A DNA stretch of 64,000 nucleotides, taken from the NCBI GenBank assembly GCA_012031035.1, contig JAAUUT010000012.1:1-64000 (forward strand), in the 5' to 3' direction. The notes beneath the pieces were generated by a model. It was given only the letters and a program-made list of their open reading frames with translations. It was not told the DNA's origin and searched no databases. The translations under genes and the position numbers were made by a program. Origin of the DNA: Candidatus Altimarinota bacterium (lineage in GTDB: Bacteria; Cyanobacteriota; Cyanobacteriia; Cyanobacteriales; Microcystaceae). Below, piece after piece: positions 1 through 32,143 of the stretch (its first letter is position 1; every line of letters starts with the position of its first letter).

Positions 1-200
1 AGCATTACTAATTCTTTTCCCCACCAGATTACCATCGGAAAGCGGGAATGCAGGCAAATACTCACGGCCGTTCGCAAACTCTGCGCCCACGTCTGTACTG
101 CACCTATAGGAGTTTTTGACCAGTCGAGCGATCGCATCAATTGAGCCATTTCGCTGCTACCAACAAACAGACTCTTTTTTGCGGTCAGTTCGTCAGTCAT
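1..200 (-). CDS. PAS-type sensor histidine kinase, N-terminal fragment
   Basis: The ATG lies at 198-200 on the minus strand and the frame stays open to the window edge, so only the first 66 residues are present. The peptide contains SLDWSKTPIGAVQTWAQSLR and then SRFPMVIWWGKELVML. This is the characteristic start of cyanobacterial and proteobacterial hybrid PAS/GAF histidine kinases, where the stretch precedes the first PAS fold. No kinase core is visible, so the kinase assignment is by family resemblance of the N-terminus. The gene is transcribed leftward, away from obgE's downstream end. Its full domain set and partner regulator lie outside the window. Confidence 0.75.
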   Translation of the reverse strand, partial: MTDELTAKKSLFVGSSEMAQLMRSLDWSKTPIGAVQTWAQSLRTAVSICLHSRFPMVIWWGKELVM

Positions 201-384
201 AATTTTTACTCCTACATATTTACTCCGGCGACAGACAAATTGTTTCTAAAAATATTTGACGATCGCTACCTACCTATATATTTTCCCAAAAAAAATTCAT
301 GCAGACCCAATACTTCTGTTTGTTTTTTCTTTCTATCAAAGTAGTGTAGGATACCTGGTCTCAACAATATCTCTGTCAAAAGAG

Positions 385-1407
385 TTAATTGGTTACTTTC
401 ACCGATAACTGGTCATTAGTTGCCAATTCAGCATCCCAAACAGCTTGTAGCATTGAATTGAGTCCGATACGAGCCACGGCTGAAATAATAAAAATCGGAT
501 TGGCGCTCAACTCGCTCAGTTGAGTTGCGATCGCGTTGGCGGTTTCGTCGTCAACGGCATCGCATTTGTTGAGTGCAATAATTTGAGGGCGATTGGGCAA
601 GTCGCGTCCGTAGGCTTCTAATTCTTGTTGAATGGTTTGATAATCGGCGATCGCATCGGCAGAAGTCAAATCGACCAAATGCAAGAGTAAGCGCGTTCGT
701 TCGATGTGGCGCAAGAAATCGTGACCCAATCCCACCCCTGCATGAGCGCCAGCGATTAATCCCGGAATATCAGCAAAAACGGTTCCGTCCCCCGTCGGTT
801 TGCGCACTACCCCCAAATTAGGGACTAAGGTAGTAAAAGGATAATTGGCAATTTTTGGACGTGCGGAAGAAAGTGCCGCAATGAGGGTAGACTTTCCCGC
901 ATTGGGTAAGCCGATAATGCCGACTTGTGCTAATAACTTCAACTCTAAACGCAACTGCTTAACCTCTCCTAGTAATCCTGGTAAAGCGTATTCAGGAGCG
1001 CGGTTGTTATTGCTTAAAAAATGCTTGTTTCCTAAGCCGCCTTTACCCCCTTTGGCAACGCAGAGGGTTTGTCCGTCTTCGACTAAATCGCCAATCAGTT
1101 CGTCGGTATCGGCATCGTAAACGACTGTACCGCAGGGAATTTCCACAATGCGATCCTGCCCGTCTGCTCCGGTACAATTATTAGGGCCGCCACGCTTGCC
1201 GTTTTCGGCTTTGAAAGAACTGGCATATTTAAAATCTAGCAAGGTTTGCAGGCGATTGGCAGCTACGAAAATGACCGAGCCGCCTTTTCCGCCATTTCCC
1301 CCTGCCGGGCCGCCTGCGGGGACGTATTTTTCTCGGCGAAAGGCAACTATTCCATCGCCTCCTTTTCCTGCTTGTACTTCAACTTCTGCGAGATCGATAA
1401 ATTGCAT
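385..1407 (-). CDS. obgE: Obg family GTPase (ribosome assembly / stress GTPase)
   Basis: This protein of about 340 residues has the glycine-rich Obg fold at the N-terminus ([20 protein letters not shown] onward) followed by a G domain. The G domain shows P-loop [10 protein letters not shown], switch [22 protein letters not shown] and base-recognition NKCD. Obg proteins bind the large ribosomal subunit and couple GTP state to ribosome maturation and stress signalling. The frame stays open upstream to a TTG at 1476, but homologues begin at the MQFIDL methionine, so the ATG at 1407 is preferred. The TerB/Mo-nitrogenase-C gene ends 38 bp upstream on the same strand, so the two may be cotranscribed. 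The C-terminus is short, as in other cyanobacterial Obg proteins, with no long acidic tail. Confidence 0.95.
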
Positions 1408-23111: not shown

Positions 23112-24425
23112 TCAAAAGATAAATACTAACTTAAGTTGCCAACTTTTAGGTTGAATACGAAGAATCTCGATTTGTCGGATAAACTCTCGAAAATAAAAAC
23201 GTCGTTCTGTTTCGGATAAATCCAACCAAAATTGAGGAAAAGAAACAGCTTGAGCAATAATTTTTAAATCTCCAGGCGGTAAGCGATCGCGTTGTTCGTT
23301 CAATCGAGCAATTTCGTTTTGTAGTTTATAACGTCGTAATTGTGCCGTCTCTTCATCCAAAATTCCTTGTTCTATTAATGTCGATAATTGTTCGATAATT
23401 GCTTGTTTATTTTCTAACTCCAACTTCAGATTTTCTTTTATTTTATTTAAGTCGGGTAAATTTAGTTGCGCGACTGTCCGGGGTAAATCTTCACAAATGC
23501 GATCGATTGTCTTTTCTAAAACATCTTGATAAGAAATCGCAGAACATTTAGGATTGAGAGGGCAAGACATCGGACGTAGATAAAGATATTGTTGTTTTTT
23601 CCCTCTGGTAGTGACGCGAGTAATTGTCATCGGAGATTGACATTGTTCGCAGATAACTAAACCTGCCAAAGAACGCGGGGCGCTGGCAGTACGAGAAGGT
23701 AAATTTCCGTTGCGACGTAGCAAGCGATCGATTTGAGCGGCTTCTTCTCTCGATAAAATGGGAATGTGAGTATCGGGAATAATCTCGTTGTTTTGATAGG
23801 CAAGATCGCCGCGATAAACGGGATTAGTTAACCAATTTTTTCCAGTAGAAACTGATATTTTTTTGCCATATCTTTTTTCTAAATAGCGAACCGCACCGCG
23901 CAAAGAACCAAATAGTAAAAAACGCTCGAAAAACTCTTTAACGACTGGCGCGGTACTGCGATCGACAATATAGCGATCTTTTCCGCGACGGTATCCATAG
24001 GGCGCTTTTCCAGGTGGCGGCAAAGCTTTGAGTCTATTGCGAGCGTGTCCTTGTTTTAGACGGCGACGGCGTTTAAAAGATTCTATTTCTTGGAATATTT
24101 TAGTTAAATTATCTCGAATATCTTTAGGATTATTAGCTTTGAATTGAGAAGATCGGTAATCTTGTTCGGTAGCGATAATTTCTATCTCCAGTAGTTCGAG
24201 TTGAGTCATGCGATCGCAAACTTCTTCAAGAGAATCTCCCAGTTCTTCTAAGCGACGAATTAATAAGCAATCTGGTTCAGAAGTTTGACAGTCTTTTAAT
24301 AATTGTAATAACTGTTGGCGCTTTCCTAAATCTTGATAAAATTTAGCGATTTCTTGTTGCCAAATCGATATATCTGGCGCAGATTCTAGAAGCGGATCGC
24401 TATAAGAATAAGCGATAATTTTCAT
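23112..24425 (-). CDS. serine-recombinase-like protein with altered catalytic residues
   Basis: This 437-residue protein has three parts: a resolvase-like N-terminal domain (1-105), a Recombinase domain (about 135-225, PPGKAPYGYRRGKDRYIVD...NWLTNPVYRGDLAYQNNEII) and a zinc ribbon with coiled coil (about 255-390, CEQCQSP...CPLNPKC). This is the layout of large serine recombinases such as XisF. The catalytic LDRLGR motif of resolvases is here LEELGD, with Glu61 and Asp64 in place of the two essential arginines. The N-terminal Y-x-R-V-S segment is YSYSD. Related cyanobacterial proteins look similar, suggesting a conserved non-recombinase role. No att site or element boundary was seen. Confidence 0.8.
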   Translation of the reverse strand: MKIIAYSYSDPLLESAPDISIWQQEIAKFYQDLGKRQQLLQLLKDCQTSEPDCLLIRRLEELGDSLEEVCDRMTQLELLEIEIIATEQDYRSSQFKANNPKDIRDNLTKIFQEIESFKRRRRLKQGHARNRLKALPPPGKAPYGYRRGKDRYIVDRSTAPVVKEFFERFLLFGSLRGAVRYLEKRYGKKISVSTGKNWLTNPVYRGDLAYQNNEIIPDTHIPILSREEAAQIDRLLRRNGNLPSRTASAPRSLAGLVICEQCQSPMTITRVTTRGKKQQYLYLRPMSCPLNPKCSAISYQDVLEKTIDRICEDLPRTVAQLNLPDLNKIKENLKLELENKQAIIEQLSTLIEQGILDEETAQLRRYKLQNEIARLNEQRDRLPPGDLKIIAQAVSFPQFWLDLSETERRFYFREFIRQIEILRIQPKSWQLKLVFIF

Positions 24426-25369: not shown

Positions 25370-26496
25370 ATGGAAACTCAACATCTCTCGCAAAAAACTA
25401 GCGCCGATCGCGCCTCGGAATTCAGACTCGATCGAACGGCATGTGGTTGGCCGGGTTTAATCGAAGCTTATCGTCCCTATCTTCCCGTAAGCGAAGCTAC
25501 CCCCGTTGTAACCTTGCTCGAAGGCAATACCCCGCTTATTCCCGCTCCCTATATTTCGCAACTGATCGGTCGCGGGGTCAAGGTTTACGTCAAATATGAT
25601 GGTTTAAACCCTACAGGAAGCTTCAAAGATAGGGGAATGACCATGGCAATTTCTAAAGCCAAGGAAGCTGGCGCACAAGCCGTTATTTGTGCTAGTACGG
25701 GCAATACTTCCGCCGCCGCCGCCGCCTATGCACGACGCGCGGGGATGCGAGCCTTTGTGATAATTCCCGATGGCTATGTGGCGATGGGAAAATTGGCGCA
25801 AGCCTTGGTATATGGGGCAGAAGTCATTGCTATTAACGGTAATTTTGACGATGCTTTAAAAATTGTCCGAGAATTATCAGAAACTTATCCGGTTACGCTA
25901 GTCAATTCGGTCAATCCTTATCGCTTAGAAGGGCAGAAAACAGCCGCATTTGAAATAGTAGACGTGTTGGGAAATGCCCCTGATTGGCTGTGCATTCCGG
26001 TAGGGAATGCAGGTAATATTAGCGCCTATTGGATGGGATTTTGTCAGTATCGCCAAGAGGAAAAATGCGATCGCTGCCAAAAATGATGGGATTCCAAGCA
26101 GCAGGCGCAGCACCTTTTATTAAGGGACAACCTATCTTGCATCCAGAAACCATCGCGACTGCTATTCGTATCGGCAATCCGGCGAATTGGGAAAAAGCGT
26201 TAGGCGCTAAAGATGCGAGTCAAGGAGAATTTAATGCCGTTACCGATGATGAGATTCTAGAGGCATATCGGATCTTAGGCGCTCATGAAGGCGTTTTCTG
26301 CGAGCCTGCTTCGGCGGCTTCTGTGGCGGGTTTGTTGCAAGTGCGCGATCGCGTTCCTTCTGGTGCAACAGTGGTTTGCGTCCTAACGGGAAATGGACTC
26401 AAAGACCCCGATTGTGCGATTAAAAATAGCAATAACGCCCTCAAAGCAGGAATTGCGCCCGATTTTATTGAAGTTGCTAAAGTAATGGGGTTTTAA
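25370..26496 (+). CDS. thrC: threonine synthase (one frameshift)
   Basis: The N-terminal part (25370-26086) contains the PLP lysine motif [36 protein letters not shown] and the phosphate-binding loop region [12 protein letters not shown]. The C-terminal part (read to 26496) begins [15 protein letters not shown] and ends with [13 protein letters not shown]. The junction is at the HIP1 site 26067-26074; adding one C after GCGATCGC restores [15 protein letters not shown]. The enzyme converts O-phosphohomoserine to threonine. The total length of about 375 residues is normal. As the enzyme is needed for prototrophy, a base-call error is more likely than gene loss. Confidence 0.9.
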
Positions 26497-26671: not shown

Positions 26672-27937
26672 TCAAACCGCTACAGAAGAGATCGCAAACC
26701 CTAACAAAAACCCTGCAATAGTAGAATAAGAAACCGAACTGCCTCCTAAATCATAAGCTTCGGGCATCATGGTACTCGATAGCATCGCTAAAATTGCACC
26801 GCCAGCTAATGCCTCGGCAATTGCGATAACAACATCAGAAACGTTATTTTGTAAAAGATACCCCGCGATCGCAGTAAATCCGCTCAAAGCCACTACACCT
26901 ATCCAAAGCGCAAGTATCTGAAACTTAGAAGTGCCCGCCTGTCGCATTCCCGCCGCACTAGAAAGCGCTTCGGGAAAGTTGGAAATAAACACCGCTATCA
27001 AAAACGACCAACCAATTTGATTATTTCCTGCATTCATGCCTATAGTAGTCGCTTCGGGGATATTATCGAGTAACGTCCCGACAAGGATGGCAACTGGGGC
27101 AGACTTTTTCACTAATCCTTCAATCGTAATCGGATCTTGCAAGGCGCGATCGAGTTCTACCTGTTCCATCAATTGTTTGCGCCAGCGTTCTAAATTGCGT
27201 TCGGCTGCTACTTGCAACTCGACGGAGTTACGCAGACGACGGGCGAGAGTGCGGCTAAGCGCCCAAGCAAGATGGGGAGAATGCGTTAATATTTCCCCAA
27301 AATTGTCGCGATCGAGCTTATATAACTCCATTGGCGTAATAGCAATCACGGTTGCAGATCGCGGCTCTCCTGTCAAGAGAGACATTTCTCCAAAAATTTC
27401 GCCTGCTCCTAACGTTGTTAAAACCGTTCGTCCTTTGCGGACTTCTGCCTCTCCTGATACGATCGCATAAAAGAAATCCCCAGGATCGCCTTCTTGACAT
27501 AATATATCGCCTGGTTTAGCGCGAGTAGGTTTGAGCAGGGTAGCTAAGGCTTCTTTTTCCGATTCAGGGAGATACTGCATTATCTCGACGTGAGAAATGC
27601 GCCTCAAAACATCGGTTTCTTCTGCATGATGTTCGAGGAGATAGCGACGACTAGAAGCTGGATTGCGCAAAAAACCGCCATGTTCGTCAATATAATGGCT
27701 TAAATAGGTAAATAAAACGCCTCCCAAAGCAAATCCAATTGCTAAGGGGAGAAATCCTTCTTTTTCATAAACTTTGGGCGTAATTTCAAATGCGATCGCA
27801 GCAATTAACGTTCCACTACCAAACGCCATAATCGCCGCTGAAAATGCCTGCTTGGGTTGCCAAACGACTCCGACATAGGCTCCAATTGCCAGACTAGAAG
27901 CCCCTAATACGCCTTGTACGAATGCCGCGATCGCCAT
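26672..27937 (-). CDS. ZIP-like transporter interrupted by a cyclic-nucleotide-binding domain
   Basis: This is a 421-residue protein. Three membrane helices (about 5-82) are followed by a cyclic-nucleotide-binding domain (about 110-235, with PGDILCQEGDPGDFFYAI and the phosphate-binding cassette GEIFGEMSLLTGEPRSATV), a helical linker and five more helices (about 270-421). The second membrane half has LLDNIPEATTIGM and FISNFPEALSSAAGM, at the positions where ZIP metal transporters have their metal-binding helices, but with Asn/Asp instead of His. The cassette keeps the Glu and Arg used to bind cAMP or cGMP. Nucleotide-gated metal transport is inferred, not shown. It is monocistronic. Confidence 0.75.
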   Translation of the reverse strand: MAIAAFVQGVLGASSLAIGAYVGVVWQPKQAFSAAIMAFGSGTLIAAIAFEITPKVYEKEGFLPLAIGFALGGVLFTYLSHYIDEHGGFLRNPASSRRYLLEHHAEETDVLRRISHVEIMQYLPESEKEALATLLKPTRAKPGDILCQEGDPGDFFYAIVSGEAEVRKGRTVLTTLGAGEIFGEMSLLTGEPRSATVIAITPMELYKLDRDNFGEILTHSPHLAWALSRTLARRLRNSVELQVAAERNLERWRKQLMEQVELDRALQDPITIEGLVKKSAPVAILVGTLLDNIPEATTIGMNAGNNQIGWSFLIAVFISNFPEALSSAAGMRQAGTSKFQILALWIGVVALSGFTAIAGYLLQNNVSDVVIAIAEALAGGAILAMLSSTMMPEAYDLGGSSVSYSTIAGFLLGFAISSVAV

Positions 27938-30206: not shown

Positions 30207-32143
30207 TTACTTTGTTTCCGAGAACTCAGCATCGATAACATCATCGCCGCTGCTGCCAGTCGAAGAACCAGCACTAGAACCGCCGCCTGTACTACCGTCA
30301 CCGCCGTAGCCGCCACCATCAGCACCAGGTGCGCCGCCACCAGCTTGCTGATAAACGCTCGTACCGATGCTATAAAGAACTTGCTGTAGTTCGGGCATCA
30401 CAGTTTTGATCTTGTCGTCGTTGTCTTGCTCGACTGCTTCTCTGAGATCCTTGATTAAACCTTCTGCTTTGCTCTTATCTGCCGCAGAGATTTTATCTTC
30501 GAGTTCTTTGATTTGCTTGTCAGCTTGGTAAACCAACGAGTCTGCTTGGTTCTTGCGATCGATTTTCTCTCTTCGCTCCTTATCTGCTGCCGCATTTGCT
30601 TCGGCTTCTTTAACCATGCGATCGACTTCGTTATCGGGTAGGGTAGAAGCACCCGTAATGCTGATTGATTGTTCTTTACCCGTTCCGCGATCCTTAGCCA
30701 TGACGTTTAGAATACCGTTGGCATCGATATCAAAGGTTACTTCGATTTGAGGAATGCCTCTGGGTGCGGGAGGAATGCCGTCGAGACGGAAAGTTCCCAA
30801 ACTCTTGTTATCTCTTGACATTTCACGTTCCCCTTGGAGAACGTGAATTTCTACGTTAGTTTGTCCGTCAACCGCAGTCGAGAAAACTTCTGACTTCTTG
30901 GTAGGAATGGTAGTGTTGCGAGGAATGATTTTGGTCATTACGCCGCCCAAGGTTTCCACGCCCAAAGATAGGGGAGTTACGTCTAGCAGTAGAATATCTT
31001 TGACTTCGCCGATGAGAACGCCACCTTGAATTGCTGCACCGACAGCAACGACTTCATCTGGGTTAACGCCTTGGTTGGGGTCTTTTCCTAATACTTTTTT
31101 CACCAGTTCTTGAACCGCAGGAATGCGAGTAGAACCGCCGACCATAACGACTTCATCGATATTTTCTTTGTTAACTTTAGCATCCCGTACAGCATTTTCT
31201 ACAGGAATGCGACAGCGATCGATAAGATCGGCACAGAGTTCTTCAAATTTAGCTCTGGTTAAGGTCGTGTCTAAGTGTTTGGGACCGTCTTGAGTTGCCG
31301 TGATAAAGGGCAAGTTAATTTCAGCTTGAGTAACGCTAGACAGTTCGATTTTGGCTTTCTCTGCCGCTTCAGTCAAACGTTGCAAGGCTTGCTTGTCTTG
31401 ACGCAAGTCGATTCCTTCGACTTTCTTAAACTCTGCTGCTAAGTAATCAACAATTTTCTTATCGAAATCGTCACCGCCGAGGTGGGTATCGCCAGAAGTT
31501 GCTAGAACTTCAAAAACGCCGTCGCCGACTTCTAGAATGGAAACGTCAAACGTACCGCCGCCCAAGTCAAAGACCAAAATGGTTTCGTTACTTTTCTTAT
31601 CTAACCCATAGGCCAGAGACGCTGCTGTTGGTTCGTTGATAATCCGTAGTACTTCTAGACCAGCAATTTTTCCAGCATCTTTAGTTGCCTGACGCTGAGA
31701 GTCGTTAAAGTATGCAGGCACAGTAATGACAGCTTGAGTAACGGTTTCGCCCAAGTATTTACTAGCATCTTCTACCAGTTGCGCAATACCTGCGCAGCGA
31801 TTTCTTCAGGAGAAAATTGCTTGCCCTGCGCCGGACAATCTAATTTGACGTTGCCCGTGCCATCTCGTAAGACTTTGTAAGAAACTTCGGTAGATTCGTT
31901 GGTTACTTCGTCAAATTTCCGTCCGATGAAGCGCTTGACGGAGTAAAAAGTATTTTGAGGATTCATGACTGCTTGACGCTTGGCGATTTGACCCACTAAG
32001 CGATCGCCATTTTTTGCATAAGCAACTACAGACGGCGTTGTCCGAAATCCTTCAGCATTAGCGATAACAGTCGGTTTACCTCCTTCCATTACTGCGATAC
32101 AAGAATTTGTTGTTCCTAAGTCAATTCCAACTACTTTTCCCAT
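30207..32143 (-). CDS. dnaK: molecular chaperone DnaK (DnaK2-like; one frameshift)
   Basis: The ATPase domain begins [20 protein letters not shown] (31772-32143) and continues in the other part (30207-31754) with [20 protein letters not shown] and [13 protein letters not shown]. The peptide-binding domain and a Gly/Ser-rich tail ending [12 protein letters not shown] follow. The parts join at 31779-31780; adding one A (minus strand) turns LRNW-stop into [16 protein letters not shown], the family sequence. Hsp70 chaperones fold and disaggregate proteins with DnaJ and GrpE, which are not nearby. Total about 645 residues. The tail and acidic end resemble the main cyanobacterial DnaK2. An intact gene is expected in the cell. 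Confidence 0.92.

Follow-up and report, generated by a model that had tools for sequence, protein, structure and literature searches.

On the minus strand of the window, the 64,000-nucleotide stretch of DNA analysed here, an intact open reading frame at 26672–27937 encodes a 421-residue protein in which Pfam recognizes only two domains. These are cNMP_binding (PF00027; residues 139–218, E 3.3e-24, 85.1 bits against a cut-off of 27.5) and, in the same chain, Zip (PF02535; best stretch residues 284–418, E 3.2e-13, 50.1 bits against a cut-off of 35.1), while no Na+/H+ exchanger domain and no voltage sensor are found by Pfam in the 421 residues. The host is a 6.05-Mb draft genome. Features of the gene are as follows, with structural assignments taken from the alignments and models described below.

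26672..27937, minus strand: whole gene, predicted ZIP transporter with an inserted cyclic-nucleotide-binding domain (CNBD), 421 aa (intact ORF with ATG start; Pfam)
27689..27937, minus strand: TM1–TM3 of the ZIP fold, residues 1–83 (AlphaFold2 helices; VIA alignment to BbZIP spanning model 1..420)
27785..27787, minus strand: Glu51, at the place of BbZIP Ser106, the pathway entrance (acidic in 62/63 family proteins)
27617..27694, minus strand: TM3-to-CNBD linker, residues 82–107, with the motif G[GS]F[LI]R at 87–91 (motif counts, conservation)
27212..27616, minus strand: CNBD, residues about 108–242 (PF00027; VIA alignment to GlxR–cAMP, 3r6s; pLDDT mostly 80–96)
27347..27394, minus strand: phosphate-binding cassette, residues 182–197, with Glu184 and Arg193 (conserved in 40/40 single-CNBD proteins)
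27104..27211, minus strand: CNBD-to-TM4 linker, residues 243–278, variable and of low confidence (conservation; pLDDT)
26675..27103, minus strand: TM4–TM8 of the ZIP fold, residues 279–421 (Pfam Zip; TM4–8 profile A3 against the PDB, BbZIP at E 3e-11)
27053..27067, minus strand: TM4 metal-site motif D291-N-I-P-E295, at the BbZIP H177 and E181 positions (Asp 63/63, Glu 63/63)
26969..26983, minus strand: TM5 metal-site motif S319-N-F-P-E323, at the BbZIP Q207 and E211 positions (Asn320 63/63, Glu323 63/63)

Two AlphaFold2 models were compared, the first built from an 11-row alignment (mean pLDDT 71.6) and the second with 19 further CNBD rows (mean pLDDT 81.6, pTM 0.57). Both place helices at 2–25, 30–60 and 62–87, a CNBD at about 108–242 and further helices from 269 to 420. 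BbZIP is ranked first by VIA-align for both models, with each match spanning model residues 1..420 and thus both halves around the insert (225 residues in each case; Z 26.4 and rmsd 2.2 Å for the first model, Z 25.5 and rmsd 2.3 Å for the second). Foldseek on the model returns CNBD-bearing structures only among its best 50 rows, and the ZIP relationship emerges in the second look with VIA-align. The insert itself superimposes on cAMP-bound GlxR (3r6s) over 135 residues in the first model (Z 20.1, rmsd 2.0 Å) and 139 in the second (Z 20.5, rmsd 1.9 Å), and the HCN, PKA and MlotiK1 domains also match it structurally. By sequence, the best PDB matches of the CNBD are the PKG and PKA regulatory domains, with MlotiK1-type bacterial cyclic-nucleotide-gated channels and CRP-type regulators further down. 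The original prediction had located a complete CRP-type cassette between helix 3 and helix 4 of a ZIP-like membrane domain and had named structure prediction as a check; Pfam, both AlphaFold2 models and the structural alignments concur with it, and the predicted fold is ZIP-like at the BbZIP Z-scores given above. As modelled, then, the product of 26672–27937 is an eight-helix ZIP fold (TM1–3, TM4–8) that a complete CNBD interrupts between TM3 and TM4. In the second model, the linkers at 88–106 and 245–269 fall below a pLDDT of 50, so that the models leave the relative pose of the CNBD and the membrane domain unfixed.

The protein belongs to a family conserved in many cyanobacteria. We compared 64 proteins: 40 different full-length proteins with the single-CNBD build, all from cyanobacterial genomes; 8 proteins of a sister family with two CNBDs each at the same insertion place (L096, L097, L152–L157); 15 CNBD-less relatives; and, as outgroup, one ordinary ZIP of the window’s own genome (L119). 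These remained of 81 ORFs with a TM4–8 match after removal of 12 copies (L120, L122–L127, L133, L138, L140, L145, L149), two pieces of the broken L017, two ORFs lacking TM1–3 (L101, L139) and one short extra ORF of L155. That broken locus, the copy of Nodosilinea sp. BSH.14 (L017, 4729–6002), is spread over three broken frames on a contig named with a coverage of 3.6, likely a sequencing error.

When 386 genomes of the window’s phylum were searched with the protein, 8 gave full-length matches, and profile A3 (TM4–8) matched in 113 of 388 genomes of its class at 1e-8. Strong A3 matches (E 4.2e-51 or better) within an open frame of 339–536 aa occur in 51 of these 388 genomes; 37 of the 51 were read and shown to carry a CNBD, and 14 were assigned by length alone. 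Frames of 611–644 aa are found in 7 of the 388, which together with one genome from the phylum search (G368) yields the eight double-CNBD proteins, all of them read. In the window’s taxonomic family (f1) the distribution is patchy, with a full-length protein in 6 of the 18 genomes listed with any match. A pattern-based genome scan, covering the best 80 of 144 relatives, found the full build in cyanobacteria only (L009–L016 and the broken L017) and two CNBD-less proteins (L018, L019); the other 69 loci of that scan, which by its nature would miss distant fusions, have no TM1–3 or TM4–8 match. Among 37 matching plasmid records none covers 80% of the query, and one of the two best, a Haladaptatus plasmid, has an ORF of 259 aa, which leaves no room for an inserted CNBD. 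We note that not every relative reaches the Pfam Zip cut-off (L100 scores 33.6 bits, and L089 has no Zip match at E 0.001).

Recurrence of this kind bears on whether the gene is a chance ORF, a chimeric assembly or a mis-joining of separate genes. The window’s assembly does have apparent frameshifts in the neighbouring thrC and dnaK genes; against this, 40 different full-length proteins share this build, and the window gene differs from the closest named copy, that of the cyanobacterium Hydrococcus sp. Prado102 (L009, 95% identical), with a dN/dS of 0.079, which indicates a protein under purifying selection. A chimera or chance ORF is rejected on the strength of those 40 relatives, and we regard an artefact as scarcely credible.

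We then consider the metal site. Profile alignment to BbZIP pairs His177 with Asp291, Asn178 with Asn292 and Glu181 with Glu295 in TM4, and Gln207 with Ser319, Asp208 with Asn320, Glu211 with Glu323 and Glu240 with Ser352 beyond it, while alignment to the genome’s ordinary ZIP pairs BbZIP Met99 with Leu44 and Ser106 with Glu51. Asp291, Glu295, Asn320, Glu323 and Leu44, as well as Pro294 and Pro322 of the TM4 and TM5 motifs, are each present in all 63 family proteins (40 single, 8 double, 15 CNBD-less); position 319 is Ser, Ala or Thr in 63/63, position 51 is acidic in 62/63, and the position of BbZIP Glu276 is Met in 59/63. The zinc-type site of BbZIP (His, Met, Gln, Glu) is consequently absent, with D291, L44, S319 and S352 standing in its place, and the NCBIfam ZupT equivalog scores 29 bits, far under its cut-off of 252. 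The claim that Asn or Asp replaces His in the metal-site helices thus holds in part: the TM4 His is indeed replaced, by Asp291, but Asn292 aligns with a residue that is Asn in BbZIP too, and in TM5 the residue at the Gln207 place is Ser319 rather than Asn. Since Asp291 is found in all 15 CNBD-less relatives, the His-to-Asp exchange characterizes a broader ZIP subfamily, independently of the CNBD, and is uninformative on gating.

According to PMC10372143, the position of ZIP8 Glu343, equivalent to Gln207, is occupied by His in most ZIP subfamilies, and its residue forms a selectivity filter together with the one at the Ser106 position; in nearly all family proteins the two are Ser and an acidic residue (Asp or Glu). 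For a site without His, Met or Cys, zinc is not a safe guess, and a metal harder than zinc (Mn, Fe or Mg) is likely, given that Asp, Glu, Asn and Ser are its sole constituents and would offer oxygen ligands throughout. The Asp-for-His ZIP subfamily without a CNBD (L018, L019, L098–L101, L104, L109, L158–L165) extends to Bacillota and Actinomycetota. Plasmids of Deinococcus, Rhizobium and Pantoea encode similar proteins that are annotated as zinc transporters, for which the metal site gives no obvious support.

With BbZIP His177, Met99, Gln207 and Glu240 all replaced, transport itself is not assured. The protein might instead be a sensor or receptor that is no longer a transporter, its ZIP part binding metal without moving it and its CNBD reporting or receiving a signal. 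The loss of the canonical BbZIP His, Met and Gln and of the second-site Glu would fit such a role, whereas the invariance of Asp291, Glu295, Asn320, Glu323 and both motif prolines extends to CNBD-less proteins that have no attached signalling domain, and we consider a pure sensor distinctly unlikely.

The best-kept part of the single-family CNBD is the cassette, FGEMSLLTGEPRSATV (residues 182–197 of the 421-aa protein). F182, G183, E184, M185, L188, R193 and A195 are each present in 40/40 single-CNBD proteins, and a FGE...PR pattern is common to the window CNBD and PKG in sequence alignment. In CNBDs, the residue at the Glu184 position contacts the ribose and that at the Arg193 position the cyclic phosphate. 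This conservation supports an intact cyclic-nucleotide pocket in the single-CNBD family. In the double-CNBD family the cassette Arg193 is His in 16/16 domains, and Glu184 is kept in 0/8 first and 6/8 second domains. These proteins appear to be a pocket-less sister family, perhaps sensing another ligand.

That the double family keeps both CNBDs despite loss of the arginine in all 16 domains shows that a CNBD can be retained here without a normal pocket, and raises the question of whether the domain in the single family is a structural or protein-interaction module, serving dimer assembly or partner binding and unresponsive to cyclic nucleotides. Family 2B encapsulin shells carry an inserted CNBD, and the corresponding NCBIfam shell model matches the window CNBD, below its cut-off. 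Moreover, BbZIP dimerizes via TM3, TM7 and TM8, according to PMC10256678, and two CNBDs would then sit together. A mere scaffold, however, need not keep Glu184, Arg193 and Ala195 in 40/40 single-CNBD proteins, and we judge a nucleotide-blind module improbable, while taking it more seriously than a pure sensor.

When a tree is built from the ZIP portion only, all 40 single-CNBD proteins fall into one clade (100/99) and the double-CNBD proteins into another (100/100), and the two join at 97/87; the program gave a long-branch warning. Downstream of TM3, 40/40 single and 8/8 double proteins carry the linker motif G[GS]F[LI]R, against 0/15 CNBD-less relatives. A CNBD tree, which includes 16 of the 40 single CNBDs, groups both double-form domains together (SH-aLRT 97) and does not resolve the link between double-form and single-form CNBDs, so that a single origin rests on the ZIP tree and the linker motif. 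The simplest reading of these sequences is one insertion, followed by duplication in one branch. The N-linker (residues 82–100) has a conservation of 0.80, on a par with that of TM4–5 (0.81), whereas the C-linker (residues 241–277) has a mean majority frequency of 0.58 and no invariant residue. This suggests a CNBD fixed to the scaffold and acting more loosely on TM4; the variable C-linker and its low model confidence argue against gating by a stiff lever.

The place of the insertion gives these observations a mechanical context. BbZIP is described in PMC9873690 as an elevator in which α1/4/5/6 move and the other four helices serve as scaffold, with the cytoplasmic side of α4 swinging away from α3 and α7 upon metal release. 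The BbZIP TM3–TM4 loop is a proposed zinc sensor using Asp144, His149, His151 and Glu276 (PMC10256678). Since TM3 lies in the static scaffold and TM4 in the moving transport domain of BbZIP, the CNBD would bridge both halves, and since the insert occupies that regulatory loop, it would connect the stationary with the moving half at a place known to regulate a relative.

Our preferred reading, to which we assign a probability of about 0.58, is therefore a ZIP-fold elevator carrier of a divalent metal, controlled by cAMP or cGMP through the CNBD that replaces the cytoplasmic TM3–TM4 loop. Its observed base is the architecture, the predicted fold, the conservation of pocket and metal carboxylates, and the genome’s class III cyclase. 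We infer within it ligand binding, metal transport, their coupling and the choice between activation and inhibition, in three steps: (I) cAMP, or cGMP, would bind the cassette, with Glu184 to the ribose and Arg193 to the cyclic phosphate, (II) the C-helix and linker would then alter how freely TM4, and hence the moving transport domain (TM1/4/5/6), can shift against the scaffold (TM2/3/7/8), and (III) the second messenger would thereby switch metal uptake, either activating or inhibiting it. Direct gating by cAMP or cGMP, as originally proposed, is a reasonable inference, and the ligand is likely to be cAMP.

All 57 fusion-bearing genomes queried for it, six of which showed the double form only, have at least one class III cyclase (PF00211). 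Cyclases are common in such cyanobacteria, and their co-occurrence with the fusion is thus weak evidence. The only PF00211 cyclase found in the window’s genome (L118, 1438–2466) is a 342-aa FHA and cyclase protein, near an ORF that looks aquaporin-like by eye. In Synechocystis, most of the cAMP is reported to come from the adenylate cyclase Cya1, which CO2 or bicarbonate stimulates (PMC10117731); connecting bicarbonate with metal uptake is speculative. A fuller scenario would combine these elements: a carrier gated directly by cyclic nucleotide, in which the CNBD links TM3 of the static scaffold with TM4 of the moving elevator and cAMP, whose production in cyanobacteria responds to CO2/bicarbonate, sets uptake of a hard divalent metal (e.g., Mn or Mg), the insertion having occurred once in cyanobacteria in place of the BbZIP zinc-sensor loop and one branch having duplicated the CNBD and lost the pocket. 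Taken as a whole we hold this scenario tentatively, as somewhat less probable than its negation.

Among known systems, BbZIP of Bordetella bronchiseptica (PDB 5tsa, 7z6m, 8ght) shares the 8-TM elevator fold (Z about 25–26), the Pro-Glu motifs in TM4 and TM5, and a TM3–TM4 loop that is a proposed intracellular regulator there and the CNBD site here. It differs in having a short His loop (H149, H151) rather than a whole CNBD, and His177/Met99/Gln207/Glu240 where the window protein has Asp/Leu/Ser/Ser. The nearest relatives of the ZIP part are CNBD-less D-x-I-P-E ZIPs such as those of Priestia endophytica (L018) and Cellulomonas (L019), which have the same metal site and fold family but are about 240–300 aa long, with a short TM3–TM4 loop and no CNBD. 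Double-CNBD cyanobacterial ZIPs share the insertion place and the G[GS]F[LI]R linker, and differ in having two CNBDs and the cassette Arg-to-His exchange throughout. In the cyclic-nucleotide-gated channels MlotiK1 and SthK, both among the PDB matches, the CNBD shares its fold with that of the window protein and is close to it in sequence, but sits C-terminally on a tetrameric channel. The sperm Na+/H+ exchanger SLC9C1 is likewise a solute carrier joined to a CNBD, and cAMP shifts its gating (PMC6052114). It has another transporter fold and a voltage sensor, whereas the window protein has no voltage sensor and its CNBD lies inside the carrier domain; at most, it would work like SLC9C1.

Both parts, ZIP and CNBD, are well known; in the open-licence literature searched, we found no description of their combination, a CNBD inside a ZIP carrier. 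If our preferred reading is true, the family would offer a prokaryotic, simpler case with natural controls in its CNBD-less and pocket-less relatives, a transcription-independent link between second messenger and metal supply in photosynthetic bacteria, and a handle on elevator gating from the loop between its two domains.

Gene neighbourhoods were compared across 22 stretches, with no neighbour common to the whole clade and none supporting a pathway; an upstream ORF of about 190 aa occurs in 9/22 and a large ORF in 6/22, mostly within one group. In the window, a threonine-synthase-like gene (thrC, PALP domain; 25370–26496, plus strand) is split into two overlapping ORFs, 25370–26086 and 26029–26496, in different frames, a frameshift that is probably the assembly’s. 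dnaK (HSP70; 30207–32143, minus strand) is also frameshifted, its parts at 31772–32143 and 30207–31754 lying in different frames and covering HSP70 profile positions 1–119 and 130–599. At 23112–24425 on the minus strand, a large serine recombinase (Resolvase, Recombinase, zinc ribbon) lies beside a small methyltransferase gene, a possible sign of a mobile element or an excision locus.
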